Below, one piece after another: positions 1,501 through 62,256 of a stretch of 64,000 nucleotides of DNA (position 1 is its first letter; the number at the start of each line of letters is the position of its first letter). The notes beneath the pieces are model-generated. The model was not told the DNA's origin. It saw nothing but the letters and a program-made list of their open reading frames with translations, and searched no databases. Location of the stretch: assembly GCA_030602715.1 (NCBI GenBank), contig JAUVZD010000009.1, forward strand, positions 62,001 through 126,000, in the 5' to 3' direction. This DNA comes from Candidatus Coatesiibacteriota bacterium (lineage in GTDB: Bacteria; RBG-13-66-14; B26-G2; JAUVZD01). A program made the position numbers and the translations under genes.

Positions 1501-3936
1501 ATGTCCCTTCATCAAAGAATTTCCCCAAATATTACTGTTCTGCTGTTGACAGCAGCCCTCTTAGCCGGCTGTGCCAAGATGGGGGTTCCCCCGGGGAAGG
1601 GCGTCGACCCCAGCCGGACCACCACCGCCCTCATCTCCACAGTGGTGGAGGACTCCACCCACCTTATCCTGACCTTCAGTGGGGGTTTGGAGCCAAAGGA
1701 GGCGCAAAAGGAGGAGAATTTCCTCATCCAGGACCAGCAGGGCAACAGACTGGAAGTGGTAGGGGTCATCCAGAACCGTGCCGATGTGCTTACCGTCATC
1801 ACTGTTCCCCAGAAGAAGGGTGACAGATACATCCTGCGTATAATCAACCTGCGGGATGAGAATGGAATACTGTTGGCAGATGTCGTGACTGCCAAATTCA
1901 CCGGTTCCGCAATGGAGGATTCCACCTCTCCCGCTCTGGTCCTTAGTTATCCCCCCCATGAATCTACGGGTATCGGTATTCTCAGTCCCATCACCCTTAC
2001 CTTCAGCGACCTGATGCAGGCTGAGAGCCTGGCGGATGCGCTGGAGATGGAAGACGACCTGGGACAAAAGGTCGCCTTCACTCTGGAAGGTGAAGGAGCC
2101 CGCTTCAGCATAATTCCCGATCAACCCTATGATTACTCCACCACCTACTACTTGCGCCTGCGCACCACCGCCACCGACGGCAACGGAAACTCCCTCTACC
2201 GGGAGGAGTTGGTCCAGTTCACCACCCTTGCCGATTCCAGAACAGCATCTATCTCCGGAACTGTTGAGTCCCTTTTCGGAGACGCTACCCCTCAAGGCAC
2301 CCGCCTCTGGCTCTCCGACAGCCAGGACCCCACCTCCTCCTCCCAGATAATATACGCTCAGACGGTGGTAGCGGAGGTCAACCCGCAGGATTACACTGAG
2401 GGTGAAACCCCACCTCCTGAGGGTGCATTTTCCTTCAACGGCTTAGCCCCCACGGGAAGCGGTATCTTCACCTACTATTTGCATGCGGCAAAGGACCAGG
2501 ATGGAGACGGTGTAGAGGAGTTTTTGGGCGGATTGGGCGCCAAAGGAGAGGTCACCCCTCTGGGCTTGGGGGTCAGTGAACATCGCAGCGGATTGGTGGT
2601 TACCCTGGTGGAAAAGGACCTCATCGGTCCGAAGGTGGTGGATGCCTGGGCGGAGCCAAATCCCATACTCTTCGGCGATACTCTCCTGCTCAAAGCCCTG
2701 ATCAGCGACATGGGGACCGGCGAAAGCTATATTGAGCAGGTGGAGGCATTCGTAGGACAAATAGGCTCCCACGGCACCGGCATAGCCCTGCTTCCCGCCC
2801 TGGGTAAATTGGGTGCGGGAAGTCAGGCGGCGGTCAGCGCCTATATCTTTGGTTTGTCGAAATTGGGCTTGAAGGAGGGTGAGAGCCTGCCGGTCTTCAT
2901 CCAGGCGAAGGACGAGAGCGGAAACTGGGGGGAGTTCTTCCGTGTGGATGTCTCCGCTCAGAAGCCGGCGGATAGAGCCTACCTTGAGGGTATGGTCACC
3001 TTTGAGCAGGTTGCGGTGGCTGGTGCGGTGGTGGTAGCCATGGATGGGGAGACATCTCGGGTGGTGAGCGCAACCGTCGCCGATGATGAGGGCTACTTCC
3101 GTCTGGAGGCACCTCCCGGAAGGGGGCTGACCGTTCTGGCTTTTAATGACGTCAATGGAAACGGTCAGTTGGACGATGTGGAGGCTAGGGGCGATGTATC
3201 CGCCTCCCCTCCAGCCAGTAATTTGCATCTCAAGTTGATGTATGTCCCCGCCTTCGGCTTCGCCAACGCCAGGCTTTCGCACTTCGCACCCTTCGGGGGA
3301 GAGGAGGAGCGCTATGAGCTGTTCGTCTGGGCGCTGGTCGCCGACGAGGACTACGACCTGCATTCGGTAACCGCAACCCTACCCAACGGAAGCGAACTGG
3401 GGCTGAACGATGAGGGGCGGGAGGGCGATGTAGTTGCAGGCGACGGCATCTATTCACTTCTGGTAAGCCTTTCTCCGCAGGAGATTCCTGTGCCGGGTAT
3501 GGTCGGGGAGGGGTTGACCTTGACCGCAGTGGATATGGTTGGCAACACGACCATTGTGGGTTGGGCACAGTTCCCCGGCTTGGCGTTGGTCAACCTGGAT
3601 TTGGTGGAGGGCATCACCGCTCTGGATGACGGTGAGGTGGTGAACATCTCCTGGCAGGGGGTGGATTTCCCCGAAAGGGCGACCTATATCATCTTCATCA
3701 TCCCCAAGGGGGTTTTTGAGGGGTTCAGTGGACCTGACACGGGTGAGGTGTGGAGCAACTTTGCCCGCCCCACCCGGCTTACGGAGCAATACATTGACCG
3801 GGTAAAGATATCCGGTTATTGGGGAACACCTACCGGAAGCCGTTATGTGGTGGCGGTGGCGGTGCTCGGTGCTGATGCCAGAAAGACGGAGGATGTAGAC
3901 AAATCCTGGGCTTTCGTTGAGCTGGTGCGCAAGTAG
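1501..3936 (+). CDS. Large lipoprotein with bacterial Ig-like (Big_5) domains
   Basis: An 811-residue exported lipoprotein: the N-terminus has a hydrophobic stretch ending in the lipobox LLAGC (Cys about 24). Residues about 40-130 and 145-240 resemble Big_5 Ig-like modules (second begins near TSPALVLSYPPHE, with SPITLTFSDLM). The middle (about 245-345) resembles a prealbumin-like 'internalisation' region, and about 490-560 a carboxypeptidase-regulatory-like beta-sandwich with DVNGNGQLDD. This mosaic is typical of surface-anchored structural or adhesive lipoproteins; no catalytic motif is visible. It stands alone, upstream of the rhamnose operon and on the same strand. The Shine-Dalgarno is weak (AAGAAG). 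Exact function is unknown. Confidence 0.85.
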   Translation: MSLHQRISPNITVLLLTAALLAGCAKMGVPPGKGVDPSRTTTALISTVVEDSTHLILTFSGGLEPKEAQKEENFLIQDQQGNRLEVVGVIQNRADVLTVITVPQKKGDRYILRIINLRDENGILLADVVTAKFTGSAMEDSTSPALVLSYPPHESTGIGILSPITLTFSDLMQAESLADALEMEDDLGQKVAFTLEGEGARFSIIPDQPYDYSTTYYLRLRTTATDGNGNSLYREELVQFTTLADSRTASISGTVESLFGDATPQGTRLWLSDSQDPTSSSQIIYAQTVVAEVNPQDYTEGETPPPEGAFSFNGLAPTGSGIFTYYLHAAKDQDGDGVEEFLGGLGAKGEVTPLGLGVSEHRSGLVVTLVEKDLIGPKVVDAWAEPNPILFGDTLLLKALISDMGTGESYIEQVEAFVGQIGSHGTGIALLPALGKLGAGSQAAVSAYIFGLSKLGLKEGESLPVFIQAKDESGNWGEFFRVDVSAQKPADRAYLEGMVTFEQVAVAGAVVVAMDGETSRVVSATVADDEGYFRLEAPPGRGLTVLAFNDVNGNGQLDDVEARGDVSASPPASNLHLKLMYVPAFGFANARLSHFAPFGGEEERYELFVWALVADEDYDLHSVTATLPNGSELGLNDEGREGDVVAGDGIYSLLVSLSPQEIPVPGMVGEGLTLTAVDMVGNTTIVGWAQFPGLALVNLDLVEGITALDDGEVVNISWQGVDFPERATYIIFIIPKGVFEGFSGPDTGEVWSNFARPTRLTEQYIDRVKISGYWGTPTGSRYVVAVAVLGADARKTEDVDKSWAFVELVRK

Positions 3937-3969
3937 GGAGGTTATGGGGCTGGATTTTGAGGTCGGCTG

Positions 3970-3978
3970 TGATATAAT
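3970..3978 (+). promoter_or_regulatory. Extended -10 promoter of the rml operon
   Basis: TGA-TATAAT is an extended -10 with a perfect TATAAT hexamer. The -35 at 17 bp is poor (CTGGAT). It lies about 40 nt upstream of the rmlC start and 34 nt after the previous stop. Confidence 0.55.
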
Positions 3979-4018
3979 GTCTTTGAAACTGTGGAGAAAT
4001 TTTCAGCGGAGGGTATAG

Positions 4019-4477
4019 ATGATTGACGGGGTCAAGATAAGAAAACTTCGGTTCATACCGGATGAGCGGGGTCATCTGATGGAGATACTCCGTTCCGATG
4101 ACGAGGAGTTTGCGGACGATTTCGGTCAGTGTTACATCACCATGGCATACCCCGGAGTGGTCAAGGGCTGGCATTACCACAAGGAGCAGACCGACCGCTT
4201 CTGCATAGTTGCCGGTATGGCCAAGATAGCCCTCTACGATGCTCGTGATGACTCCCCCACCAAGGGCGAGGTCAACGAGTTCTTCATCGGGGAGGTAAAT
4301 CCCTGCCTGCTGGTCATTCCACCCGGCGTGGTACACGGCATGAAGGCGATGGGGCGGAAAGCCTGCTACCTGCTCAACATACCGGACAAGGTATATGATT
4401 ATGATAAGCCCGACGAGTATCGCATTGACCCCTGGGATAACGATATACCCTATGACTGGGGATTGAAGGAGGGGTAG
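4019..4477 (+). CDS. rmlC: dTDP-4-dehydrorhamnose 3,5-epimerase-like cupin (RmlC family)
   Basis: A 152-residue single-domain cupin of the RmlC superfamily, which epimerises dTDP-4-dehydro-6-deoxyglucose at C3 and C5 in dTDP-L-rhamnose synthesis. Visible landmarks are KGWHYHKEQTDRF at the cupin motif (His pair), SPTKGEVNEFF, a PPGVVHG strand, and the C-terminal YRIDPWDNDIPYDW, matching the RmlC skeleton. It is about 30 residues shorter than classical RmlC, so a related sugar-nucleotide isomerase is possible. Position decides the call: it opens an operon with rmlA, rmlB and rmlD. Confidence 0.8.
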   Translation: MIDGVKIRKLRFIPDERGHLMEILRSDDEEFADDFGQCYITMAYPGVVKGWHYHKEQTDRFCIVAGMAKIALYDARDDSPTKGEVNEFFIGEVNPCLLVIPPGVVHGMKAMGRKACYLLNIPDKVYDYDKPDEYRIDPWDNDIPYDWGLKEG

Positions 4478-4544
4478 GGGGGGGATTTTAATCTACTGAT
4501 TAGGTTGAAGGTGAATATGTTGCAAGATAGAGGCTAACCCCATC

Positions 4545-5279
4545 ATGAAAGGCATCCTCCTCTGTGGGGGGAGCGGAACTAGGCTCCACCCCCTTACCAA
4601 AGTGACCAACAAGCATCTCCTGCCGGTCTATGACCGACCGATGGTCTATTATCCTCTGCAGACTCTGGTGCAGGCGGGCATTGAGGAGATAATGTTGGTG
4701 ACCGGGGGAAACCACGCCGGTGAGTTCCTGCGCCTGCTGGGCACCGGCGCCGAGTTCGGCTTGAAGAAGCCCCTCTCCTACGCCTACCAGGAGGAGGCTT
4801 TGGGTATAGCTCACGCCCTATCCCTTGCCGAGGATTTTGCCGGCGAGAGTCCGGTCTGCGTCATCCTGGGGGACAACATTCTGGGCTCGTCCATCGCAGA
4901 TGCGGTCGCCGAGTTCACCGCCGACCCCAGGGGAGCCATGGTCTTCCTCAAGGAGGTGGACAACCCAAGCGAATACGGCATTGCCACCCTCAAGGACGGC
5001 GAGATTATAGAGATAGTGGAGAAGCCCAGGAAGCCGAAAAGTTACCTGGCGGTCATCGGGGTCTATCTCTACGAGCCGGCGGTCTTTGAGGTGGTCAAGA
5101 CGCTTGAGCCTTCAGCGAGAGGGGAGCTGGAGATAACCGATGTCTCCAATCACTATCTTCGCCAGGGCAAACTGAAATATAAGCTCTATGAGGGCTATTG
5201 GGGTGACGCCGGGGAGAGCATATCCGCTCTGCTTGCGGTGAGCAACGAGGTGGCGGGGTGGGGAAGGCGTGAAATTTAA
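4545..5279 (+). CDS. rmlA: Glucose-1-phosphate thymidylyltransferase (RmlA)
   Basis: Nucleotidyltransferase joining dTTP and glucose-1-phosphate to dTDP-glucose, the first step of dTDP-rhamnose synthesis. The N-terminus MKGILLCGGSGTRLHPLT is the G-X-G-T-R-L nucleotide-binding signature; LGDNILG carries the metal-binding Asp; and VEKPRKPKSYLAVIGVY matches the sugar-binding region. At 244 residues it is the short form, lacking the C-terminal allosteric segment of about 290-residue RmlA enzymes. It lies 67 nt after rmlC. Downstream, 57 nt after the stop, begins the duplicated rmlB start and the inserted DUF4258/DUF2283 cassette. Confidence 0.93.
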   Translation: MKGILLCGGSGTRLHPLTKVTNKHLLPVYDRPMVYYPLQTLVQAGIEEIMLVTGGNHAGEFLRLLGTGAEFGLKKPLSYAYQEEALGIAHALSLAEDFAGESPVCVILGDNILGSSIADAVAEFTADPRGAMVFLKEVDNPSEYGIATLKDGEIIEIVEKPRKPKSYLAVIGVYLYEPAVFEVVKTLEPSARGELEITDVSNHYLRQGKLKYKLYEGYWGDAGESISALLAVSNEVAGWGRREI

Positions 5280-5336
5280 TATGGTATTGTAAGGTATTAT
5301 AGCGGTTCAGGATTAATCTTTGATTTTTACCGAAAG

Positions 5337-5374
5337 GCTCTTTATGAATCTGCTCATCACCGGCGGAGCCGGCT
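5337..5374 (+). repeat. Left copy of 38-bp direct repeat (duplicated rmlB start)
   Basis: The sequence from GCTCTTTATG to GGAGCCGGCT matches 5876-5913 at 37 of 38 positions (T/C at 5349 versus 5888), offset 539 bp. It contains the ribosome-binding region and first codons of rmlB. The two copies bracket the DUF4258/DUF2283 genes. Confidence 0.95.
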
Positions 5375-5376
5375 GA
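5344..5376 (+). pseudogene. Ten-codon rmlB stub left at the insertion junction
   Basis: The left repeat still reads MNLLITGGAG, the first ten residues of rmlB, and then hits TGA at the junction. It keeps the original upstream AAAGG ribosome-binding region. The stop lies 5 nt before the start of the DUF4258 gene, so ribosomes loading on the old rmlB site could re-initiate on that gene. Whether the stub is translated is an inference. Confidence 0.75.
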
Positions 5377-5381
5377 ATTAA

Positions 5382-5639
5382 ATGATGAAAACAATTAGAT
5401 TATCTCAACATGCTTTGGAACAACTTGCATTTAGAGGTATATCTAAGAAGGAAGTTGAGAAAGCTATTACCTCAAGTAGGTGGTCTACAATAAAGGGAAA
5501 AAGGTTTGAATGCCGGTTGGATTTTGATTTCAAAGGTGAGTGGCAAGGAAAATACTATAATACTAAACAGGTAAGACCCATTTTCGTTGAAGAAGAAGAT
5601 GAGATTGTAGTCATCACAGTTTACTCCTACTATTTTTGA
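5382..5639 (+). CDS. DUF4258-like small protein, putative toxin-type partner
   Basis: An 85-residue basic protein with an SQHALEQLAFRGISKKEVEKAI N-terminus (HA...R.I...EV..AI), RFECRLDFDF in the middle and a VRPIFVEE...IVVITVYSYYF end, the layout of DUF4258 proteins. These are small BECR-like folds often found beside small partners in toxin-antitoxin-like pairs. The start is an ATGATG doublet, 5 nt after the rmlB stub stop, without a good Shine-Dalgarno of its own. Base composition is more AT-rich than the flanking rml genes. The DUF2283 gene follows after 6 nt. Toxin activity is an inference from family context only. Confidence 0.75.
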   Translation: MMKTIRLSQHALEQLAFRGISKKEVEKAITSSRWSTIKGKRFECRLDFDFKGEWQGKYYNTKQVRPIFVEEEDEIVVITVYSYYF

Positions 5640-5645
5640 GGTGAA

Positions 5646-5867
5646 TTGAAAATGAAAATCTCCTACGATTCCGAGGTGGATGTTTTATATATTCGCTTTA
5701 AGGAGACCGAGGTATCCACAGAACACCTCGCTGAGGGAATATCCGCTGACTACGATAAAGATGGTAATCTGGCGGGGATTGAGATACTTGATGCCAGCAA
5801 AATGCTGGGGGATAGGGATTTCTTCCGTCAGATAATTGTGGATAATCTGGTAGGGTCATCAAAGTAA
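5646..5867 (+). CDS. DUF2283 domain protein, putative antitoxin-type partner
   Basis: A 73-residue protein with ISYDSEVDVLYIRF near the N-terminus and GISADYDKDGNLAGIEILDAS, the hallmark of DUF2283. The family is widely paired with DUF4258 proteins. It starts about 6 nt after the DUF4258 stop; an alternative Met is two codons in. Its C-terminus (FFRQIIVDNLVG) is followed by a new AAAGGA motif and the intact rmlB copy. Function in the pair is not established; an antitoxin role is inferred from organisation. Confidence 0.8.
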   Translation: MKMKISYDSEVDVLYIRFKETEVSTEHLAEGISADYDKDGNLAGIEILDASKMLGDRDFFRQIIVDNLVGSSK

Positions 5868-5875
5868 AGGAAAAA

Positions 5876-5913
5876 GCTCTTTATGAACCTGCTCATCACC
5901 GGCGGAGCCGGCT
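5876..5913 (+). repeat. Right copy of 38-bp direct repeat (functional rmlB start)
   Basis: Second copy of the repeat at 5337-5374; here the reading frame continues into the full rmlB gene. Its upstream AAAGGA sits in sequence contributed by the cassette. Confidence 0.95.
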
Positions 5914-6887
5914 TCATCGGTTCAAACTTCACCCGCTACATCGCCCGAAAACACCCCGACTGGAAGATAATCGTCCTGGATAAGCTCAACTATCGTGGCA
6001 GACGGGAAAACCTGCTGGAGGTGGAGGGGAGACTAAAATTCCACTTCATCCACGGGGACATCTGCATAGAAGGGGATGTAGCTCCCCTGCTTCCGGGCAT
6101 TGATTGGGTGATAAACTTCGCTGCCGAGACCTTCGTTGACCGCTCCATCATGAGCGCCAACGACTTCGTGCGCACCGATGTGCTGGGTGTCTTCACCATA
6201 ATGGAGGCGATGCGGGAACATTCCCCCGAGGGGCGTTTACTGCACCTCTCCACAGACGAGGTCTATGGGGAGATACTGAAGGGCAAAGCCGGCGAGGATT
6301 GGCCCCTTGCCCCCCGCAATCCCTACTCCGCCTCCAAAGCCGGTGGAGAGATGTTGGTCAGTTCATATATCAACACCCACAACTTTGCGGCGATAATCGC
6401 CCGCCCCTCCAACAACTTCGGTCCTCATCAGTTCCCGGAGAATTTTATCCCCCTGTTTATTACCAACGCCTTGGAGAAAAAGCCCCTACCCCTCTATGGA
6501 GACGGACGGCAGGTGCGGGACTGGCTATTTGTGGAGGACTGCTGTGTGGCTTTGGAGATGCTTATGGAGAAGGGCGAGCTTGGGGAGGTTTATAACATCG
6601 GCGGGGGGGAGGAGCGAGAGAACATCCTGGTGGCGGAGCTTATCTGTCAGGAGTTGGGGGTGGACAAGAAAGCCATCAAGCTGGTCAAGGACCGTCCGGG
6701 TCACGACCGTAGATACGCTCTGGACAGCGGTAGGCTCGCCTCTCTTGGGTGGGCTCCCAGCAAGCCCTTTGAGGAGCGACTGACGGAGACGGTGCGCTGG
6801 TATGTGGAAAATGTTGACTGGTGGAAGCCGCTCAAGAGTGGGGAGTATAAGGAGTTTTATCGCCAATGGTATGGGGAGAGGCTGTAG
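5883..6887 (+). CDS. rmlB: dTDP-glucose 4,6-dehydratase (RmlB)
   Basis: Extended short-chain dehydrogenase of 334 residues that converts dTDP-glucose to dTDP-4-dehydro-6-deoxyglucose using bound NAD. The Rossmann motif GGAGFIGSN opens the protein, LSTDEVYGE carries the catalytic Thr-Asp-Glu triad, and YSASKAG is the YxxxK motif. RPSNNFGPHQFPENFIP and the late RYALDS are family landmarks. It is the third rhamnose gene, displaced from rmlA by the inserted DUF4258/DUF2283 cassette; the insertion duplicated the start, so the protein is intact. rmlD follows after 23 nt. Confidence 0.95.
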   Translation: MNLLITGGAGFIGSNFTRYIARKHPDWKIIVLDKLNYRGRRENLLEVEGRLKFHFIHGDICIEGDVAPLLPGIDWVINFAAETFVDRSIMSANDFVRTDVLGVFTIMEAMREHSPEGRLLHLSTDEVYGEILKGKAGEDWPLAPRNPYSASKAGGEMLVSSYINTHNFAAIIARPSNNFGPHQFPENFIPLFITNALEKKPLPLYGDGRQVRDWLFVEDCCVALEMLMEKGELGEVYNIGGGEERENILVAELICQELGVDKKAIKLVKDRPGHDRRYALDSGRLASLGWAPSKPFEERLTETVRWYVENVDWWKPLKSGEYKEFYRQWYGERL

Positions 6888-6910
6888 GGAGTGAGGAGCA
6901 GGTATAGGAC

Positions 6911-7762
6911 TTGGTTGATTACGGGAAAATTATGGTGACCGGCGCACTTGGGCAGTTGGGCAAGGAGCTGGTCGCTTTGTTGATGGAGGCAGGCTATCAG
7001 GTATCAGCCGTTGACCTGCCGGAGTTTGACCTCACCGATTCCTCTGTGGTGGAGGCTCATCTTTCCAGCGAACGACCGCAGTTCATCTTCCACTGCGCCG
7101 CCTACACCGATGTGGAGCGGGCTGAGGAGGAGCCGGAGCTGGCACGGCAGATAAACGCCCTCGCCACCGCCGACCTTTCCGTTTCTGCCGACGGGCTCGG
7201 GGCACCCCTGGTCTATATCTCCACCGATTTCGTCTTTGACGGAGAACAAAGAAAACCTTACACAGAGGATATCTACCCCAATCCGCTCTCAGCATATGGT
7301 CGTTCAAAACGGGATGGTGAGCTGGCGGTTATGCAATCCTGCCGAAAGTATTTCATCGTCCGCACCTCATGGCTCTTCGGTCGCTCGCCTGCCGCCTTCC
7401 CGCAAAAGATACTGGCAAAGGCTTCCGAAAATGCCCCGCTCAAGGTGGTGGATGACCAGCGGGGCTCGCCGACCTATGCCAGGGATCTGGCGGGCGGTCT
7501 TCTGCCCCTGCTGGGAAGCGACGCCTACGGCGTCTATCATCTGGCAAACGGGGGGACGGCGAGCTGGTATGAGCTTGCCTGCGAGACCCTCAAACTTGCT
7601 GATATGGGGGACTATCCAATAGAGCGAGTCTCGGCGGGTGAGTTTACCACAAAAGCGAAGCGTCCGGCATATTCCGTACTGGATTGTAGTAAATATAAGG
7701 AAACCTTTGGGGTTGAGTTGCGCCACTGGCGGGAGGCGCTGGCGGAGTATGTGCAAAGTTAA
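6911..7762 (+). CDS. rmlD: dTDP-4-dehydrorhamnose reductase (RmlD)
   Basis: NAD(P)H-dependent short-chain reductase of 283 residues making dTDP-L-rhamnose, the last step of the pathway. Visible: VTGALGQLGKEL (Rossmann GxxGxxG), AAYTDVERAEEEPE and YISTDFVFDGEQRKPYTE (typical RmlD), YGRSKRDGE (YxxxK) and RTSWLFG. The start is TTG at 6911; an in-frame TAG lies six bases upstream and the family needs residues before the KIMVTG strand, so the internal ATG at 6932 is less likely. It closes the rml operon, whose product is a cell-surface polysaccharide precursor. No clear terminator follows. Confidence 0.93.
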   Translation: MVDYGKIMVTGALGQLGKELVALLMEAGYQVSAVDLPEFDLTDSSVVEAHLSSERPQFIFHCAAYTDVERAEEEPELARQINALATADLSVSADGLGAPLVYISTDFVFDGEQRKPYTEDIYPNPLSAYGRSKRDGELAVMQSCRKYFIVRTSWLFGRSPAAFPQKILAKASENAPLKVVDDQRGSPTYARDLAGGLLPLLGSDAYGVYHLANGGTASWYELACETLKLADMGDYPIERVSAGEFTTKAKRPAYSVLDCSKYKETFGVELRHWREALAEYVQS

Positions 7763-7861
7763 CTGGTTTGAGTGTAGTGCGATTAATTTAAAAAGGAAGC
7801 CGTTAACCTTCCTGTATATGTTATCTCATAGATTGTGAGATCTCTTTAGCTCATGTAGACT

Positions 7862-9148
7862 ATGTCTCAACTGATAACCACCACCAAGCCGGTCGCCGAG
7901 AAATCCCTGCTCATCGGCATAGATTCTCCTTATGAGCGTTCCCATCTGGATGTGGAGGAGAGCCTGGAGGAGCTGGGGGCCCTTCTCCGTGCCAGCGGAG
8001 CCGAGGTGCTGGGCAGTGTAATCGTAAAACAGCGAAAGCCCACTCCAGCCGCCTATATCACCGAGAGTAAGCTGGAGGAGGTGGCGGTGTTGGTGGCGGA
8101 GATGGATGCCAACCTGGTGGTCTTTGATGTGGAGTTGAACCAGCGGCAGGTGGGAAACTGCGAGCGCATTCTGGACTGTGGGGTTATAGACCGCACCTGG
8201 GCTATACTGGATATCTTCGCCCTCCACGCCTCCAGCGCCGAAGGCAAGATTGCTGTGGAGCTGGCAATGCTTTCGTATCTCCTACCTCACCTGACCGGAA
8301 AGGGGCGGGACCTCTCCCGTCTGGGCGGGGGGATCGGCACGCGTGGTCCCGGTGAGACCAAGCTGGAGACCGACCGTCGTCGGGTGCGCCAGCGCATCGC
8401 CAAGCTGAAGAAAGACCTGGCTCAGATAGAGAGGAGGCGGCGAGTGGGGAGTAGAATACGGCGCGCTCCCGGGGGACCGTTTAAGGTGGCTCTGGTGGGT
8501 TACACCAACTCCGGCAAGACCACCCTGTTGAACACCCTGACCTCCTCCGACGCCTTCACCGAGGACGGCTTCTTCTCCACTCTGGATCCCACCACCCGTA
8601 GATTGACTTTTGAAGGCGGTCGGGAGGTGGTCTTTTCCGACACCGTGGGCTTTATCTGCAAGCTTCCCCACCAGTTGGTGGAGGGTTTCCGTGCCACGCT
8701 GGAGGAGGTGGTGGTGGCTGACCTCATAATGTTGGTCGCCGATGCGGAAGACCAACGCCTGCCGGCACAACTGGAGGTGGTGGAGGAGGTGCTGGAGAGT
8801 TTGAGTGCCTCACAGATTCCCCGCTTACTGGTGCTTAACAAGCGAGATAAACTGGGGATTCAGGAGCTTTCCGCCCGCATGCAGATGCGGTCGGAGGCGG
8901 TAGCCATATCGGCGCTCACCGGGGAAAATCTGGATGGATTGATGGCTATGGTTGAGGAGCAGGCGATGCGGAATATGGTCTGTGTGCGAGCCAGGTTCAG
9001 TGGCGGGGATAAGGCAATAATCAAACGTTTTCGGCGGTTGGCTCAGGTGATAGGCGAGACCACCTCGCCGACAAACGAGGTGGTCATTGAAGCCTGGGTT
9101 CATCGGGAATTGGCGGAACGATTCAAGGGATTGGAATATATTGGATAG
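7862..9148 (+). CDS. hflX: Ribosome-associated GTPase HflX
   Basis: Of 428 residues, the N-terminal HflX domain (about 15-190) carries AAYITESKLEE and LNQRQVGNCERI; a glycine-rich linker GGGIGTRGPGETKLETDRR is the family hallmark. The G domain has G1 GYTNSGKT, G2/G3 around FSTLDPTTRR and DTVGF, and G4 NKRD. HflX binds the 50S subunit and rescues or splits stalled and stress-damaged ribosomes. It is preceded by a 99-bp gap holding only weak inverted repeats, and no good Shine-Dalgarno is seen. It converges with the thioesterase gene 10 bp downstream. Confidence 0.95.
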   Translation: MSQLITTTKPVAEKSLLIGIDSPYERSHLDVEESLEELGALLRASGAEVLGSVIVKQRKPTPAAYITESKLEEVAVLVAEMDANLVVFDVELNQRQVGNCERILDCGVIDRTWAILDIFALHASSAEGKIAVELAMLSYLLPHLTGKGRDLSRLGGGIGTRGPGETKLETDRRRVRQRIAKLKKDLAQIERRRRVGSRIRRAPGGPFKVALVGYTNSGKTTLLNTLTSSDAFTEDGFFSTLDPTTRRLTFEGGREVVFSDTVGFICKLPHQLVEGFRATLEEVVVADLIMLVADAEDQRLPAQLEVVEEVLESLSASQIPRLLVLNKRDKLGIQELSARMQMRSEAVAISALTGENLDGLMAMVEEQAMRNMVCVRARFSGGDKAIIKRFRRLAQVIGETTSPTNEVVIEAWVHRELAERFKGLEYIG

Positions 9149-9158
9149 ATTGAGTGGT

Positions 9159-9638
9159 TCATCCTGCCCGCAGGTCTTCCACACACGGCTGACTGCTGTC
9201 CTCATTCTCCAGGTAGCTTAGAATCTCATCAGTTGCCTCATCCTTCAGGGGAAAGTATTTCCCCCACCCTTTGGCATAGATATTCCCCTCGCTGTCCTCA
9301 ATATAGCCCTCAGCGGTCAGGTAGCGGTGTTTATCATTCACCATCTCCGCCACCGCGCGCACCTCCATCCCCGGTTGAAGCGGCAAGAGATAGCGGACGG
9401 ATAGCTCCCAGGTGTTAAACAGTAACCCGGTCTTCACGCAGATCGCCCAACCCATAATCTCGTCCAGGACGGCGGACAGGATTCCGCCGTGGATGTGGTC
9501 TTTGTAGCCCACATGATGTTCGGCGGGCTTGAACTCGGCGAAGACCCTTTCGCCGTCGGTTTGGAAGGTTATGGATAAGCCACAGTGGTTTTCCCGACCG
9601 CAGATGAAACATTTCGGGTAGCGGGGAAGGGGTTTCAT
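9159..9638 (-). CDS. PaaI-family hotdog thioesterase
   Basis: A 159-residue hotdog-fold protein. HIHGGILSAVLDEIMGWA is the central helix with the HGG...D/E catalytic signature of PaaI/4HBT acyl-CoA thioesterases, and CFICGRENHCGL at the N-terminus is a short cysteine-containing lead-in seen in one PaaI subgroup. It probably hydrolyses an acyl- or aryl-CoA thioester in the cytoplasm; the substrate is unknown. The ATG has a GGAGG Shine-Dalgarno 6 nt upstream. It converges with hflX. Confidence 0.85.
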   Translation of the reverse strand: MKPLPRYPKCFICGRENHCGLSITFQTDGERVFAEFKPAEHHVGYKDHIHGGILSAVLDEIMGWAICVKTGLLFNTWELSVRYLLPLQPGMEVRAVAEMVNDKHRYLTAEGYIEDSEGNIYAKGWGKYFPLKDEATDEILSYLENEDSSQPCVEDLRAG

Positions 9639-9752
9639 AAGATACCTCCGGTGGATTTAATGTATTATACATTATGCGAAGGATATAATAAACCCATATC
9701 CTGATGGGGGGATAGAGATACATGCTTAAGACATTATACTGTTGAAAGGATA

Positions 9753-9781
9753 TTGCGCCGTTTTCATAACTATGATATAGT
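9753..9781 (+). promoter_or_regulatory. Promoter of the barrel-like gene at 9829
   Basis: TTGCGC, 17 bp, TATAGT with a TGA extended -10. It lies 48 nt before the ATG. Confidence 0.5.
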
Positions 9782-9828
9782 GATATTCTGGTTTTCACTG
9801 TGGAATCAACCGGAAGAGAAGGAAGCTG

Positions 9829-10593
9829 ATGTTTTTTAGAGGGACAGTGCTGTTTTTTTTGCTCAGCGCAATGCTGTTTTCCCCTGGTTTTGCCCAGACA
9901 AGATACGGCGACCTGAGCGATGAGGAGCTGAAGGTGATTCCTCCGCCGGACTGGTATCTTATTTTTGCTGTGGGGACCAGCGGGGGACAGAGTGGATGGG
10001 ACTTCAACTCCCCTTATATTGCCTTTCAGGGGAGCTTCCACCGCTACTTTGGAGATTCCGGCTCAAACAGACTGGGAGTATACTTTACCTATATGCAGAG
10101 TAGGCGGATAAACGAGTTTTTCCCCAACCGAGGTCCCATCTACAATAACTGTAAAAAGCATATAATAATTGGGCTTTGCCATCATTTTCTGTTGGTTCCC
10201 AAACAGAGAATATGTCCCGCTCTGGGGTATGGCTTTGCGGTGATGAATATCCGGGCAAAGGGCAGTTATGAATATGTTTTCTATGAACAATCTGAAGGTG
10301 ATGGGGCATGTTCTCCAAGCGAGAATGATTACCAGCCCTATGTTGAGGAGCGGGAGGTGAGGATAAATGCCTGGCGCACGGGGGTGTTGTTGTCTGTGGC
10401 TTTGCGAGTCAACCTTACCTCCAAGTTTGACTTGGAGTTTGGGTTGTTCCAGACCCTGGGTATAAAGGGAATTAACAAAGATGTGGTTGTCAAGCAGGAG
10501 ATGAGTGGGGGAAAGATTAGGACGCAGATTATAGAATATAAAGTGCCACTAAACGAGACCATCTTGACCGCCGGGCTGGCTTTTCGCCTTTAA
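9829..10593 (+). CDS. Secreted outer-membrane beta-barrel-like protein
   Basis: A 254-residue protein with a signal peptide (hydrophobic FFLLSAMLF then FAQ) and a mature part rich in alternating aromatic and polar residues such as LGVYFTYMQSRR, LCHHFLLV and YGFAVMNIRAKG, ending in a final strand AGLAFRL with an aromatic-free terminus. This pattern suggests a small outer-membrane barrel, but no named family is recognised. AAGGAAG precedes the ATG. A small possible reading frame and a propeller-like secreted gene follow. Confidence 0.6.
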   Translation: MFFRGTVLFFLLSAMLFSPGFAQTRYGDLSDEELKVIPPPDWYLIFAVGTSGGQSGWDFNSPYIAFQGSFHRYFGDSGSNRLGVYFTYMQSRRINEFFPNRGPIYNNCKKHIIIGLCHHFLLVPKQRICPALGYGFAVMNIRAKGSYEYVFYEQSEGDGACSPSENDYQPYVEEREVRINAWRTGVLLSVALRVNLTSKFDLEFGLFQTLGIKGINKDVVVKQEMSGGKIRTQIIEYKVPLNETILTAGLAFRL

Positions 10594-10653
10594 CCGCAAT
10601 TTCCTGCGACCATAACTGTGCATCGGGGAGATGGATGATGGAGGAGATCCTGG

Positions 10654-10818
10654 ATGAGAGGTCGCTTCTGGCTTGCGATACCATCCTTGACGAATGTATG
10701 GAACATGAGAGCGGGAGTGGCATATTTGAAGATAGGGCATAAAGGGGCTCCTCCCGGTAAAGATTTTTACCCGCTGGAGCATCTTTATCCGATTGAGATA
10801 GGAAAATTAGAGGAGTGA
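10654..10818 (+). CDS. Possible 54-residue small protein
   Basis: Too short for the ORF track. ATG at 10654 is preceded by GGAGGAG with 7-nt spacing, one of the better ribosome-binding sites in this stretch, and the frame runs to TGA at 10816-10818, six bases before the next gene's ATG, so its last codons double as that gene's Shine-Dalgarno. The product is not recognised; it has a KGAPPGKDFYPLEHLYP segment. No family support, so it could also be a decayed gene or chance frame. Confidence 0.35.
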   Translation: MRGRFWLAIPSLTNVWNMRAGVAYLKIGHKGAPPGKDFYPLEHLYPIEIGKLEE

Positions 10819-10823
10819 GATAG

Positions 10824-11840
10824 ATGAGGAATATTGTGCTGTTTACAGTAATGGTTCTTATGATTCCTTGCTTGGCTAACAGTTTGTATGAGACTTGGGA
10901 TTTGGGTGGGAGTGGTTATGGCCATGAAGTGATGGGGATAGCGATGGTATCTGAGGAGGATGGATGGGCAGTTAAGCGATATGGAAATCTATATCATTGG
11001 GATGGTGAAAATTGGGAATTTGTGATGGACTTTCCAGGTGGAGGACAGTTTTATGGGATGGAGTACTATGACTCCACCCACATTTATGCGTATCCTGGTG
11101 CTGTTCTATGGATGTATAACGGGATTGAATGGGAGGTATTTGAATCTCAACCGCCATCTGGGGCAGCGGATATGGAGGTGATAGCACCAGATAGTATATG
11201 GGTGAAAGGGTCAGATGTGAAGGGAGGAAAGGAGAATCAATCTGCTTGTTATTGGGACGGTGTTGATTGGACTGTTTATAATAATCCAGAGGGGTTTGAT
11301 AATGATTATTTGGCTTGTCTCGGCTTCGGCTCGTTTGATGAGGGTTGGGCTGGTGGCGATAATGGAGCCATGAGCCATTTTTATGATGGTGAGTGGCATG
11401 CGGTGGAGCCACCATTGACTGGCGAGTGGTTGACCTGTTCTGATTTCGCCAACCCAGATTATGGAATGATGGCTGGAGAGGGTGTTTATATGATTTATTA
11501 TGGTGGTAGTTGGGATGTTCACGATGCGGTGCCAAATATCTTTACCGACTGTTTTGTAATAAACAATGAGTATCTTGTGATGGTAAGCGATAATCATAAG
11601 ACTATATATATAATGCATTACGATTATTATGAGATTGGAAAGTACACAGGTGTGGAAATGTATTCCGTCTTTGCTACGGCGCCTAATGACATATGGGCTG
11701 GGGGTGAGGACGGCTTCGTCTGCCACTGGAACTTCAACATTGATGTCCAGCCCACATCGGTGGGGCAGATAAAGGCGATGTTCGGCGGGGAGGGGGTGTC
11801 TTCTGCCGAGCCCTCAGGGCACAGCGAGCCAATAAGATGA
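10824..11840 (+). CDS. Secreted propeller-like protein with VQPTS...IKAxF C-terminal motif
   Basis: A 338-residue exported protein with signal peptide (LFTVMVLMIPCLANS). The mature part is a run of short Trp/Tyr/Gly-rich strands such as DGWAVKRYGNLYHWDG, EGWAGGDNGAMSHF and NDIWAGGEDGFVCHW, which resemble BNR/YCF48-type beta-propeller blades. Near the C-terminus is DVQPTSVGQIKAMFG, almost the same as the extreme C-terminus of the unrelated secreted protein at 42858-43586. Unlike that protein it continues about 20 residues past the motif. Codon use is more AT-rich than the neighbours over most of its length, but the tail returns to GC-rich sequence, as if the body was exchanged. Confidence 0.75.
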   Translation: MRNIVLFTVMVLMIPCLANSLYETWDLGGSGYGHEVMGIAMVSEEDGWAVKRYGNLYHWDGENWEFVMDFPGGGQFYGMEYYDSTHIYAYPGAVLWMYNGIEWEVFESQPPSGAADMEVIAPDSIWVKGSDVKGGKENQSACYWDGVDWTVYNNPEGFDNDYLACLGFGSFDEGWAGGDNGAMSHFYDGEWHAVEPPLTGEWLTCSDFANPDYGMMAGEGVYMIYYGGSWDVHDAVPNIFTDCFVINNEYLVMVSDNHKTIYIMHYDYYEIGKYTGVEMYSVFATAPNDIWAGGEDGFVCHWNFNIDVQPTSVGQIKAMFGGEGVSSAEPSGHSEPIR

Positions 11841-42692: not shown

Positions 42693-42857
42693 AACCGGGG
42701 TAGTGTGAGCGAGCTTGGAGATTGCATTATGTAAATTATGAATCTATGGTAGGCATTACTCAATTGGCAAAAAAATTACCGAATGACCAATCTGTGGTTG
42801 TATTTTCTTAAGAGCTGTGTTATATTTTTGAAAAGGAGACTTGGGACCGATTTTGAG

Positions 42858-43586
42858 ATGAAGGAAAAATTCCTCAGATACTTTTTTATCGTCCTTTTTG
42901 TGGTTGTCTTTCCCACCTTCTCGGCAGGTGATTTGCCGTATTCCATCGTTCCTTTACAGCCGGGCGGTGGCAATAGCCCCCAGGATTCTTACGAATTGCG
43001 CTTTGACGACGGAAGCTACGAGAACGGCATAAACTGGTACTCCGAATGGGTTGGGGGCTGGGTGGGATTTGCCAAGAAGCTTTCTGACGAATTTCCAGAG
43101 GACCAATTTCTGCGGATAGAGAACATAATTCTGGCATTTTCCCGCAAAGAGGGGCAGTTGAGCTCCGCATGCAATTACGAGCTGGCAATTTGTCCAGAGG
43201 TTGACGGTCTTCCGGATGTATTTAATATCATCTGGCAGGAGACCTATACCCACTCCGAGGATATTCCCTTCGCTCCAAATTGGACCAATGTGGACCACAT
43301 CCCCGAGGAAGAGGTGCTGATATCCTGGGAGGATAATGTCTTCTTTCTCTGTTATTTCCCTCGCTGGAGCGCCGGCGTTACCCCTGATCCACCCTTCTAC
43401 TTCTGTGTGGACATGGACAGTTGGTATGTCCGTTCCTATGGGAATTTTGAGCAGACCGACCCGGACTGGAAGACATTTCCCGAGCTTTACATCGTTGAAT
43501 CGGAGTTGGGGGTAGGTGTGGTGGTCAGTCTGACAACTTCCGTTCAACCGACCAGTTTGGGTGAAATCAAGGCTCTCTTCAGATGA
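42858..43586 (+). CDS. Secreted protein ending in a VQPTSLGEIKALF motif
   Basis: A 242-residue exported protein from the ATG at 42858; the longer ORF-track start adds a second hydrophobic stretch and is not needed. The signal peptide is FIVLFVVVFPTFSAG. The mature part is a compact beta domain ([31 protein letters not shown]...), jelly-roll-like, close in style to carbohydrate- or matrix-binding domains. The last 14 residues are VQPTSLGEIKALFR, shared with the unrelated protein at 10824-11840. No T9SS-type domain. Function unknown. Confidence 0.75.
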   Translation: MKEKFLRYFFIVLFVVVFPTFSAGDLPYSIVPLQPGGGNSPQDSYELRFDDGSYENGINWYSEWVGGWVGFAKKLSDEFPEDQFLRIENIILAFSRKEGQLSSACNYELAICPEVDGLPDVFNIIWQETYTHSEDIPFAPNWTNVDHIPEEEVLISWEDNVFFLCYFPRWSAGVTPDPPFYFCVDMDSWYVRSYGNFEQTDPDWKTFPELYIVESELGVGVVVSLTTSVQPTSLGEIKALFR

Positions 43587-43729: not shown

Positions 43730-45403
43730 ATGAAAAGGACGACATTCTTGGTATGTGCATCAATTTTCTTGCTCGCCGGTCTTGCCGGGGAGGCTTTAAC
43801 TCTGGATTGGATATATGATGGGTCTTTTCCCACCAGCCCACAGGGTATCGCTCGCTTTGACGGTTGTTACTATTCGGGAACTGGATTGATCTATTTCTTG
43901 GGAGGGCGAAACGAGGATAACACCACTAACGGCACAGTGTGGAGTTTTGACCCCCAGAGTTTGACCTTCACTGACACCGGCGCAGTAATGGAGACTCCCA
44001 TCTCCAATTATCAGTGTGCCTTACTAGACGACGGGAGTCAGTGGGGCATCTATGTCTTTGGAGGGCGTATGGAGGGCGACATTTTAACTCCAATCGTTCA
44101 GGTCTATTACCCGGATACCAACACCACTGCTACACTGCCTCTTGCTGACAGTATGCCCTTTGCGGAGATTTATCTCGGTGCCGCTGTGGGGGTATATGAC
44201 AATAAGGCTTTCGTTTTCGGTGGTTTCAACCCCAATGTCACTCCGTGTTTTACCGATGAGTGCTGGATCTTTGACCCCACGCAGTCTTCGGGCAATAGGT
44301 GGACCGACACCGGTTCCCAACTGACCGTAGCTCGGGGCTACATAGTCTCCGCCGTCGTAGATGATTATCTATACTGCTTCGGGGGAACCGAACTCTGGGA
44401 AGAAGACTATCTTTATCCCACTAATCTCTGTGAACGGTTGGACCTCACCGACCCCGGTTCGGGTTGGGACGATGCGTCTGTCGCCGACTGCCCGGATTTC
44501 TTAGACGAGAGCTTCGGTGTGGGCTTTGATTCCGATGCCGACTATCTTCCCGGGATTATTGTAGTCCCCGGCTACGGCTACTGGCCTGAACAAAGTAGCA
44601 ATTGTTACTTATACGACACTATAGCCAACACCTGGACCTTGGACGATGACCTCAACCAGGAGAGACGCAACCATGCGGTTGAGTTCTATCCCGAATCGGT
44701 TAAGGATGATGGTTGTCCCGGTATCTGGGTCTTCGGCGGTTATGATGGCGAGGATATCGACACCATGACCGATAGCATTGAGTATACCGATATGCCTGAA
44801 GTCGCGGTCATCATCAGCGAGTTTTCCGCAGTTCCCCTGGATACCAGCGTTGAGCTCTACTGGCGAACTGTGGAGACCGATTGTGAGTATGGATACAACA
44901 TCTATCGCCGGGAAGTGAATGAAGCTTCGTATAGTCCTCTATCCGCTAGGTCTGTAAAGATTGAATTTGTGAAAGTCAACGACGAACTGATCATCGGCTC
45001 CAACCCCTACTACTTCAACGACTCGCAGGTGGAGGTGGGAAGAACCTATATCTATCGCCTGGAGGCGGTGGAGATAGGCGCGGGTCATGTAGCTGCCGCT
45101 GCTGAGGATACCTGCGTCGTATCCGGATACACCTTCGCTTTAGCCTGCAGTTTCCCCAACCCGGCCGACACCTATGCCAAACTGACCTTTACCATTCCGG
45201 AGTATATGTCACCCGCCCATATCAGCCTATCGGTCTACGATCTCTCCGGTCGTCTGGTTACCAGATTGGAGAGTCTGGAAGGATATTCCAGCGGTATCCA
45301 TTACCTGGAGCTGAACACCAGCGAATGGGCGAGTGGAGTTTATTCCCTCCACCTTGACGCCAATTCGGAGACCGCCAGCGGTAGTATGGTGGTGGTGCAT
45401 TAG
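43730..45403 (+). CDS. Secreted kelch-repeat protein with T9SS type A sorting domain
   Basis: A 557-residue surface protein with signal peptide (FLLAGLAGEA). Five to six kelch blades are recognisable by FGGR/FGG motifs (LIYFLGGRNED, IYVFGGRMEG, AFVFGGFNP, YCFGGTEL, IWVFGGYDG). Residues about 360-450 are a fibronectin-like module (VELYWRTVETDCEYGYNIYRRE), and about 470-557 a Por/T9SS type A domain (LACSFPNPADTYAKLTFTIP, VYDLSGRLVTRLE, SGVYSLHL, ending MVVVH). The C-terminal module is shared with the 45531 gene. GAAAGGAGAG precedes the ATG. Confidence 0.88.
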   Translation: MKRTTFLVCASIFLLAGLAGEALTLDWIYDGSFPTSPQGIARFDGCYYSGTGLIYFLGGRNEDNTTNGTVWSFDPQSLTFTDTGAVMETPISNYQCALLDDGSQWGIYVFGGRMEGDILTPIVQVYYPDTNTTATLPLADSMPFAEIYLGAAVGVYDNKAFVFGGFNPNVTPCFTDECWIFDPTQSSGNRWTDTGSQLTVARGYIVSAVVDDYLYCFGGTELWEEDYLYPTNLCERLDLTDPGSGWDDASVADCPDFLDESFGVGFDSDADYLPGIIVVPGYGYWPEQSSNCYLYDTIANTWTLDDDLNQERRNHAVEFYPESVKDDGCPGIWVFGGYDGEDIDTMTDSIEYTDMPEVAVIISEFSAVPLDTSVELYWRTVETDCEYGYNIYRREVNEASYSPLSARSVKIEFVKVNDELIIGSNPYYFNDSQVEVGRTYIYRLEAVEIGAGHVAAAAEDTCVVSGYTFALACSFPNPADTYAKLTFTIPEYMSPAHISLSVYDLSGRLVTRLESLEGYSSGIHYLELNTSEWASGVYSLHLDANSETASGSMVVVH

Positions 45404-45530: not shown

Positions 45531-47240
45531 CTATCGCACCACTACTAATTGCGCAGATGACCGTTCAGCTCCGCTTTTTGCCACTATGGTGTAGGTTCCC
45601 TCGGAAAGTTCAACGGTCTCAAATTTTACTGTGTGAACGCCTTCTCCCATCTCCCTGAGATTGTGGCGCAGGACCGTCCGTCCGGAGAGGTCGTAGAGGG
45701 TTATCTGCACCGTTGAGCTTAGGGGAAGGAAGATGGCCATGGTTACATAATCGCAAGCCGGGTTGGGATAGACCGAGGTGATGGTAAAAGCCGCTGGCAT
45801 GGTATCTATGGTTACCTCGGTGTTGCCGAGAATTGAGAGGGAGCTGGAAAGGAGCGCTTCCAGTTTGAATTCGTAGGTGGTATCTTTATCAACCTCCCGG
45901 TCGGTGAAGCTGTAGGGGTTCAGACCGGTGATGGGGGCGGTGTTTATCTTTCTCCAGCTATCGCCGTTCAGTTTGGACTTGAGACTTGCGGGGGTAGGTC
46001 CACTTGATGGAGAATCCAACTCTCGACGATAGAGATTGAAGCCCATGATGGGCTCATCAGCGATTATCTCCCATTGCAGGAGTGCACCTTCCGCAATCGG
46101 TTTCGCCTCAAAGAAGATTAGCTCTACATCAATATCGCCCTGGAAGTGGCCGTCGTAGCCCATAAAGGTGAGGTAGTTGGAGACCCAGCTCTGGTCCATA
46201 TCGTCGGGGTCCACCTCCGCCGCCGGAATTCCCCCATCGTCGTCTCCGTCCTCCTCCATCAGATGGTTGAGTAGCCAATCGTAGTTGTCCTGATAGGTGG
46301 TGTCGTCGGTCTCTTTCCAGGTGGCATAATGACCCAGCATATACCAGGCGTTCCAGGCGTTTTGCCAGGAACCGGCGGATACATAGGTCTCCATCTCCGG
46401 CGCATAGGTAGTGAGCCACTCCACGGTTTCGTCGGGATTTTCACGGAAATAGGAATTGACCAGACCCCAGACTATCGCGCCTCCGCTCATTGCCCAAGTT
46501 TCATAACTTAGAAAGATGGTGATAGTTTCTACATGAGTCTTTATGTCCTCCGCCCGGTCAACTGCCGATTGCTTATAGGTGTCGTTTCCCACATAGTCTC
46601 CATAGATGTATAGACAGCCGGCGGACCATATGTCTACCAATAAGTTTAGCGGTGATGATTCATAGTCCAGCACCCAGTCGCAGAGATACTGGGCACAGCT
46701 CTCTCCGTAACTGTCGTAAGTGTCGTCGCCGGTTGCCTGTTTGTATTTCATGGCGCACAGAAGCCCCCAGGCGGATACATAATTGCGGTAGTAACCGCCG
46801 GCGCCACCCTCCTCCTCCCAGCCGGGGTTTGCCAGGCAATATTGCCAGGCGGCGGAGGTATTGTCGGCGAAGGGATTGCTGCCGAACAGTTCGTGGTATC
46901 GGCACCATACCCAGATGGATTCCTCGGTGTTATCCGTCTGGATGATATCCCATAGATGACCGTCTCCGCCGTCTTCCCCTTCCCTCATTCCGCCGTAGTT
47001 GGGGTCATCGGGGTCCAGCACCTGTAAGGTGGTTATGAATTCAGCCTCGGCATAGAACTCATCCATCCAGGTCTTGTAACCTAAAGTCTGCTGGATGGGA
47101 GGGGGCGTAAAAGCGAGACCGGGTTGGTCGCCCAGCATGGGGTTTATGGAAAGCTCCTCTTCGGGGATGTAGATTGTTGCCAGGAGGGGGCTTGCGGTGA
47201 GGGTGAGAGCCAGGAGGAAGAGAATGATATTTTTATACAT
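45531..47240 (-). CDS. Secreted alpha/alpha-toroid-like protein with T9SS type A sorting domain
   Basis: A 569-residue exported protein from the ATG at 47240 (AAGGAG at 6 nt; the ORF-track GTG is two codons earlier). Signal peptide FLLALTLTASPLLA. Residues about 50-360 are helical pairs with many Trp/Tyr (YRNYVSAWGLLCAMKYKQATGD, GSWQNAWNAWYMLGHYATWKET), resembling (alpha/alpha) barrel folds of cyclases or polysaccharide lyases; no catalytic residues are certain. Residues about 375-470 carry the FGFNLYRRE-type fibronectin module, then a Por/T9SS tail (VQITLYDLSGRTVLRHN...ending LVVVR). It converges with the kelch gene. Confidence 0.82.
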   Translation of the reverse strand: MYKNIILFLLALTLTASPLLATIYIPEEELSINPMLGDQPGLAFTPPPIQQTLGYKTWMDEFYAEAEFITTLQVLDPDDPNYGGMREGEDGGDGHLWDIIQTDNTEESIWVWCRYHELFGSNPFADNTSAAWQYCLANPGWEEEGGAGGYYRNYVSAWGLLCAMKYKQATGDDTYDSYGESCAQYLCDWVLDYESSPLNLLVDIWSAGCLYIYGDYVGNDTYKQSAVDRAEDIKTHVETITIFLSYETWAMSGGAIVWGLVNSYFRENPDETVEWLTTYAPEMETYVSAGSWQNAWNAWYMLGHYATWKETDDTTYQDNYDWLLNHLMEEDGDDDGGIPAAEVDPDDMDQSWVSNYLTFMGYDGHFQGDIDVELIFFEAKPIAEGALLQWEIIADEPIMGFNLYRRELDSPSSGPTPASLKSKLNGDSWRKINTAPITGLNPYSFTDREVDKDTTYEFKLEALLSSSLSILGNTEVTIDTMPAAFTITSVYPNPACDYVTMAIFLPLSSTVQITLYDLSGRTVLRHNLREMGEGVHTVKFETVELSEGTYTIVAKSGAERSSAQLVVVR

Positions 47241-47347
47241 TGCCACTCCTTTCTACATTTGGGTGAAAGGATGAGGTATCAACTGCGGTTGGTAAATATA
47301 TTTTATTCTTAAAAGATGGAGAAGTCAAGGAATTATGGGATAAGATG

Positions 47348-53703: not shown

Positions 53704-54636
53704 TTAGAACTTGGAGATGGTCAACAGTCCGTCTTCATTGGCGTAGGCGATGTAGGTCTTTCCGCCGGTGATGCAGACATCTACGCCTTTGCAACCGTCA
53801 ACGGTGATGGTCTCCTTGCGCACCGAACTGGCGTCGGCTGTGGAGGAGACATTAAAGGTATTCATGAAGATGTAATTGGTATCCTCGGAAGCCCACACCA
53901 CACAAAGCTCTCCATTGGCGGAATAAGTGCATGCGGGAGACAGCTTGGTTTTCTCCTCCAGCTCGGTGTCGTGGTAGCCGATGACATTTATCTCCCCGCC
54001 GGTATACTGCAGGGCGAAACAGGTGATGTGGACCTTGTCCTTGTCACCCCTCCAGACTACCGTGGCTAAATCACCGAAGATGTCAAGTGATGCCTCTGAT
54101 TTTGCCTCCAGCTCGTTGTAGCGTATATCGCACAGGTTGTTGTAGGCGCCGATTTGGTCTATGTTGGAGCCTATAAGTGTAACCCCGGGTTTTTTACTGG
54201 ATATCCAGGTGTTTACCACATAATCATCCCAGCCGGCTACCGAGGGACCGTATTCGGCTGAAGGACTATACTCGGTCGTTCCGACAAGATTGAAGTCGGT
54301 GTTAAAGAGGACGATCTTGACGTCGTCATCTTCGGTGGTAAAGGCGAGGATCAGCTTATCCCACAGGAATCCACAGTCGGGCTTGTCATTGGTGGTATAC
54401 ATTATGTCGGCGGAGGTTTGCCAGACTATTACCTGTCCCCCGGCGGTTACCAGTTTAACCTTGCCGAAGAGGATGTCCTTATCCTTGTCGGCGTAGGCGA
54501 CATAGAAGTTGCCGTCCGTGGTGGTGATGCTCGGTCCCTTTACCACCTCAATGTCCGAGGTGTATTTGATGTCGGCAAGAGCCGGACCGGCCAGGATAAG
54601 TCCACCAATTAATACTGCTGATAGAATCATTCTCAT
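53704..54636 (-). CDS. Secreted propeller-like protein (paralogue of 55272)
   Basis: A 310-residue exported protein with signal peptide ending PALA|D. The mature part is a series of short strands (NFYVAYADKDKDILFGKVKL, TYIAYANEDGLLTI) like beta-propeller blades. It resembles the protein at 55272-56261 in the AYA(D/N)xDG strands and in overall plan. It lacks a T9SS domain. With the 54676 gene between them, the three may be one unit. Function unknown. Confidence 0.68.
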   Translation of the reverse strand: MRMILSAVLIGGLILAGPALADIKYTSDIEVVKGPSITTTDGNFYVAYADKDKDILFGKVKLVTAGGQVIVWQTSADIMYTTNDKPDCGFLWDKLILAFTTEDDDVKIVLFNTDFNLVGTTEYSPSAEYGPSVAGWDDYVVNTWISSKKPGVTLIGSNIDQIGAYNNLCDIRYNELEAKSEASLDIFGDLATVVWRGDKDKVHITCFALQYTGGEINVIGYHDTELEEKTKLSPACTYSANGELCVVWASEDTNYIFMNTFNVSSTADASSVRKETITVDGCKGVDVCITGGKTYIAYANEDGLLTISKF

Positions 54637-56261: not shown

Positions 56262-56414
56262 ACCAGCCCCCTTAAAAAAATTCATGTAAATGCTATCATT
56301 TTAACACGCCCCTGTCAAGACCTCTTAATTTGGAAGTTTTTCGGTCTATGTTAAACTTCGGGGGTCAATTCTTAGAAATTTGGGCGGTGTAAAATCCTCG
56401 TTTCCAATCGCCAT

Positions 56415-62191: not shown

Positions 62192-62256
62192 TGTAATGGA
62201 AAACGACAGGTTGAAACAGAAAAGGTCTGTTTTCAATACTTAGTTGTTTAATGCTA

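Follow-up and report, generated by a model that had tools for sequence, protein, structure and literature searches.

The type IX secretion system (T9SS) works with C-terminal signals: once bound to a barrel shuttle docked on SprA, such a signal is drawn out through its side (PMC10994853). PorV serves as shuttle for type A and PorP-like proteins for type B signals, and the type B C-terminal domain (CTD; TIGR04131) with its PorP/SprF-like shuttle is the precedent for a second C-terminal T9SS signal (PMC9143113, PMC12618676). The presence of the system in other FCB phyla was suggested earlier (PMC11285876). In the open-access journal literature checked, only T9SS signals of type A and type B were found described.

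The analysed window is a stretch of 64,000 nucleotides, positions 62001-126000 of contig C12 in a 2.31-Mb assembly (own genome, G000). Its preliminary description had pointed to a 13-residue motif at or near the C-terminus of two otherwise unrelated exported proteins and had proposed a second C-terminal tag used alongside the T9SS. The features concerned are the following (window coordinates; further genomes carry G numbers and further sequence stretches L numbers).

10824-11840, + strand: exported propeller-like protein of 338 aa with signal peptide MRNIVLFTVMVLMIPCLANS; tag 18 residues before the C-terminus
11745-11783, + strand: tag copy 1, VQPTSVGQIKAMF, residues 308-320 of the open reading frame 10824-11840; genome-search match G000:C12:73763-73783
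11784-11837, + strand: unusual 18-codon extension GGEGVSSAEPSGHSEPIR behind tag copy 1, followed by two stops
42783-43586, + strand: exported beta-rich protein, open reading frame of 267 aa ending in the tag; likely start at 42858, MKEKFLRYFFIVLFVVVFPTFSA
43542-43580, + strand: tag copy 2, VQPTSLGEIKALF, with R and a stop behind it; genome-search match G000:C12:105560-105580
43730-45403, + strand: adjacent exported protein carrying a classical type A T9SS CTD; TIGR04183 match G000:C12:107152-107385 (window 45152-45385)
45531-47246, - strand: exported protein with a type A T9SS CTD; TIGR04183 match G000:C12:107540-107773 (window 45540-45773)
60293-62236, - strand: exported FG-GAP-like protein with a type A T9SS CTD; TIGR04183 match G000:C12:122302-122556 (window 60302-60556)

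The shared motif was confirmed at both places. Its copies agree in 10 of 13 residues and are written with different codons throughout, as described before; copy 2 stands one residue and copy 1 about 18 residues from the end of its protein. Signal peptides are present on both proteins. Neither is matched by an NCBIfam model, those for the T9SS included, in agreement with the earlier statement that both lack a T9SS domain, and Pfam gave no match above threshold to either and sub-threshold matches to the 10824 protein only. Among the intact tagged genes found in this genome, that of the 10824 protein alone has a non-terminal tag, and its extension possibly results from a recent stop loss. A second case of a non-terminal tag is the lipoprotein-like protein at L197:4818-5489 with the extended tag TSWGAIKALYLGRGVKPLPERD. 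The window also holds two adjoining exported propeller-like proteins on the - strand (53704-54636 and 55272-56285), probably paralogous, which carry neither tag nor CTD.

The own genome was examined by pattern searches and in single stretches. Searching its 2.31 Mb with the back-translated core G..IKA.F yielded 8 matches versus 0 for the reversed pattern. A looser pattern gave 62 versus 18, and a pattern with one residue and a stop behind it 20 versus 0. A total of 21 open reading frames of at least 60 aa were found to end in the motif plus exactly one residue, 20 of them intact genes. The tag comprises the 13-14 C-terminal residues with the consensus [P/x]-x-[S/T]-[L/V/F/W]-G-x-[I/V]-K-[A/S]-[L/M/I]-[F/Y]-x-stop; Q at -5 and S at -2 were invariant in all 21 tags, though the search did not demand either. 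Using searches without a stop requirement, exactly one residue followed the F/Y in 21/21 tags of the own genome and in 51/55 of its class. Two decayed copies were also noticed, a frameshifted 58-codon signal-peptide reading frame in L001:1-3021 (contig C2) and, in L004:1341-1527 (contig C4), a truncated duplicate of the tagged gene next to it.

By a strict rule-based test all 20 intact tagged proteins of the own genome carry a Sec signal peptide. Applying the same rule to the own-genome stretches, 14/14 tagged versus 59/175 untagged reading frames were positive (p=7e-7). Elsewhere 5/5 tagged proteins of the phylum, 38/46 of the class and 33/40 outside were positive, several of the misses being masked or truncated sequences or signal peptides rejected by the rule. 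A lipobox was absent in 100/103 tagged proteins. With the tag cut off, the 20 proteins sort into about 15 unrelated families, some of the genes being tandem paralogues (e.g., L009/L010 and L025/L100), and 47 Pfam families were found across 78 tagged cargo proteins, with propeller, DNRLRE, FN3, LTD and AhpC/TSA among the domain types. Tagged proteins are small, with a median of 238 aa in the own genome; the CTD proteins are mostly open frames of 550-910 aa. The preliminary description had named two findings that would speak against its idea, absence of the motif from other exported proteins and a position inside one homologous fold shared by both. The former did not occur, with about 20 exported carriers found, and the latter is contradicted by the unrelated cargo. 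At the level of sequence, these data establish a real tag that is encoded, near-terminal, conserved and carried by unrelated Sec-exported proteins.

The distribution of the tag was analyzed by searching 386 genomes for the pattern G.[IV]K[AS]x[FY]x-stop with the reversed pattern as control. The own genome gave 20 matches, a genome of the same order (G001) 13 and other members of the class 25 to 150, with 0 or 1 for the control, and 0 to 5 matches per genome were found in the other family of the own phylum. Four class relatives (G002, G003, G004 and G006) hold 94-150 matches per 2.3-2.9 Mb genome; many of their tags sit on tandem NHL-propeller paralogues, and the tagged proteins as a whole make up a large share of the exported proteome. 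Outside the own phylum about a dozen genomes from eight or so families yielded 6 to 46 matches each, the residue before G being mostly W there, TWGxIK(A/S)(L/M)YR. A collection-wide scan with the pattern pointed to named lineages, for which whole-genome counts were 29-45 for Candidatus Eisenbacteria and relatives, 10 for Gemmatimonadota DHS20C21 and 5 each for Fermentibacteraceae and Krumholzibacteriota, all with a control of 0. In a Bacteroidota-like phylum with 297 genomes no tag-rich genome was found, the maximum being 4 matches. Outside the own class a TAG stop ends 27/44 tagged genes versus 155/438 other open reading frames (L103-L108, L133-L141, L152-L159, L197-L202, L206-L216, L247-L256), an excess that is probably due to base composition.

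Many other genomes contain exactly one match, always in the same gene. The encoded protein, 130-150 residues long, starts with a signal peptide, contains a single FN3-like domain and terminates in TWGSIKA(M/L)FR; it was identified in G020, G064, G087, G168, G228, G337, G340 and G357 and was present in 16/20 stretches from the phylum of G216. As the SprA of G216 scores 2705 bits, this phylum probably belongs, judged from sequence, to the Bacteroidota in the wide sense. Comparing 24 of these proteins, which are 19-35% identical to the first, TWG[SA]IKA[MLI]F[RK] was the most conserved stretch, with T-W-G-x-I-K-A-x-F invariant. Scanning them with Pfam and NCBIfam gave scattered weak matches only and no family, and no model in either library spans the tag, neither in these 24 nor in the window proteins. 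Foldseek against the PDB returned generic FN3 folds only. AlphaFold predicted a confident FN3 sandwich (pLDDT mostly 93-97) followed by a terminal helix of low confidence (pLDDT about 55-65). A maf-like gene, named by eye, often adjoins the gene (L266-L282, L142-L151). In other proteins encoded by these genomes, FN3 of this type immediately precedes TIGR04183, e.g., G168:C2:751992-752234 (FN3) followed by 752328-752555 (TIGR04183); the tag therefore stands at the usual place of the CTD. The single-copy protein looks like the ancestral carrier, from which many cargo proteins of the own phylum, the Eisenbacteria and their neighbours may later have acquired the tag.

SprA (TIGR04189) was found in 28/29 genomes with at least 3 tags versus 131/357 of the others (Fisher p about 7e-11, a value inflated by the relatedness of the genomes, although the families span several phyla). 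It was present in 14/15 families of multi-tag genomes, and the sole SprA-negative genome with at least 3 tags, G227, has three unalike matches, which is near chance. Carriers of the single-copy FN3 protein were SprA genomes wherever tested. Since the 131 SprA-positive genomes with fewer than 3 tags lack multiple copies, the tag is not needed for the T9SS. The own genome encodes SprA (reading frame of 1993 aa in L286), 11 PorV-family proteins and 36 type A CTD matches; every tag-bearing genome tested contains between 23 and at least 89 type A CTD proteins and 6-34 PorV-family proteins. The suggestion of a second C-terminal tag alongside the T9SS thus gained support, as the tag recurs on exported proteins, in relatives and in other phyla, and the genome holds both SprA and CTDs.

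T9SS genomes with and without tags cannot be told apart by their number of PorV-family proteins, and no consistent link was seen between the gene neighbourhoods of tags and T9SS genes. A dedicated PorV paralogue beside tagged genes was considered and dropped, since close pairs were few and showed no consistent pattern. Within the own genome no swap of CTD and tag between homologous cargo was found, and the tagged cargo has no homology to that of the CTD proteins. A divergent arrangement of sprA and a tagged propeller gene, about 150 bases apart, occurs in two genomes (G003 and G004) from a single genus of the class (L287:1701-2669 with 2812-8673; L288:4008-4976 with 5132-10963); with 140 tagged genes, such a placement should turn up occasionally. 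The link to the T9SS rests on co-occurrence and domain position; the receptor and the fate of the tagged proteins are matters of inference.

On balance, we believe that the tag is a minimal C-terminal sorting or docking signal which, alongside the classical CTD, a T9SS-linked receptor probably recognises in the periplasm. The Sec pathway carries the tagged protein over the inner membrane, as its signal peptide shows, and the protein would fold on the periplasmic side, its tail of 13-14 residues left free; the loose terminal helix of the AlphaFold model gives a weak hint of this. The tail would then be bound by a T9SS receptor, most likely a PorV-family shuttle or SprA itself, which might move the protein to the cell surface or hold it there. 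In the same cells the tag would work beside the 70-residue type A CTD and replace it on small single-domain cargo. A strongly amphipathic character of the tag helix found no support, its hydrophobic moment not being clearly above that of shuffled sequences (mean z 0.1-0.8). The most economical reading is that one of the many PorV paralogues serves as the dedicated shuttle of a third signal. More tentatively, with doubt somewhat outweighing confidence, we propose a third class of T9SS signal: a C-terminal peptide of 13-14 residues instead of a domain, read by its own shuttle or SprA. This peptide would have originated as the docking tail of one conserved FN3 protein, present in single copy and part of the T9SS apparatus; several uncultured phyla would later have extended it to as many as about 150 cargo proteins per genome.

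The tag could instead be a surface-anchoring or assembly peptide whose receptor, an outer-membrane, S-layer or matrix protein, is unrelated to the T9SS, SprA co-occurring as both are old in the same phyla. Such a receptor would fit the many T9SS genomes without multiple tags and the gene neighbourhoods, which tie no tags to T9SS genes; as only 3/103 tagged proteins have a lipobox, another retention route would also make sense. It does not account for SprA in 28/29 multi-tag genomes and 14/15 families, for the single-copy carriers in SprA genomes wherever tested, or for the FN3-tag arrangement mirroring FN3-CTD, and we consider it unlikely, though a serious contender. Protease recognition is a typical role of short C-terminal peptides. 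A mark for quality control or retention, recognised by a periplasmic protease or chaperone and with no sorting function, would agree with this and with the near-terminal position in almost every case. Quite improbable nevertheless, a degradation mark does not predict a gene-encoded tag on small, diverse, structural-looking exported proteins, its invariance over deep divergence or its co-occurrence with SprA.

Descent from a shared C-terminal domain, or recent copying by a mobile element, might explain the tandem paralogues among the tagged genes (L009/L010, L025/L100). The other cargo is unrelated, with propeller, DNRLRE, FN3, LTD and AhpC/TSA-type domains, and the tag codons differ between copies, which makes shared descent highly improbable as the source of the tail. 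Had the 13 residues been seen in two proteins only, they could have coincided; against the reversed-pattern control, counts of 8 versus 0, 20 versus 0 and up to 150 versus 1 leave a negligible probability for a chance likeness of two C-termini.

The tag matters because the libraries searched contain no description of such a label and because it is nearly confined to T9SS-bearing bacteria, many of them little studied; letter strings derived from it were likewise absent from the open-access journal literature searched. It offers a sequence test for probably co-sorted proteins in Eisenbacteria, Krumholzibacteriota, Fermentibacterota and the own phylum, marking 5 to 150 proteins per genome that all catalogued family models used leave unflagged. 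Should it be a T9SS signal, a peptide of 14 residues would take the place of a folded domain of 70 residues, and cargo recognition by SprA or PorV would become testable with a synthetic peptide. The single-copy FN3 protein, with its tail invariant across very distant lineages, would then be an overlooked T9SS-associated protein, and some of its carriers may be culturable.

Comparing the tag with known systems, a superficial similarity of letters and the principle of short C-terminal docking are shared with the encapsulin cargo-loading peptide. Encapsulin cargo is cytosolic, and this type of peptide was ruled out because the tagged cargo is exported with signal peptides. The signals of PEP-CTERM/exosortase, GlyGly-CTERM/rhombosortase and LPXTG/sortase consist of a motif, a transmembrane helix and a basic tail. 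Like the tag they recur at the C-terminus of unrelated exported proteins; unlike them, the tag has neither hydrophobic helix nor basic tail, and a single residue of the protein follows the motif. In form it matches neither the CTDs nor the tripartite CTERM signals. The type A (TIGR04183) and type B (TIGR04131) models matched neither window protein and are absent from the matches listed for the 24 FN3-tag proteins, which speaks against the known T9SS CTD types; likewise, neither type occurs among the first 25 of 35 families listed for the 78 tagged proteins. The type B CTD differs from the tag in being a folded domain of its own. The type A CTD (Por_Secre_tail) resembles it as a C-terminal signal on Sec-exported cargo of the same genomes, which the same FN3 type can precede and which has a recurrent lysine near the C-terminus. 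With about 70 residues it forms a folded beta-sandwich, whereas the tag has 13-14 residues, no domain and no matching model, and its lysine is offset by one position, counted from the end. Tagged proteins share with T9SS cargo the Sec signal peptide (20/20 in the own genome), and translocon and shuttles are encoded in the same genome.
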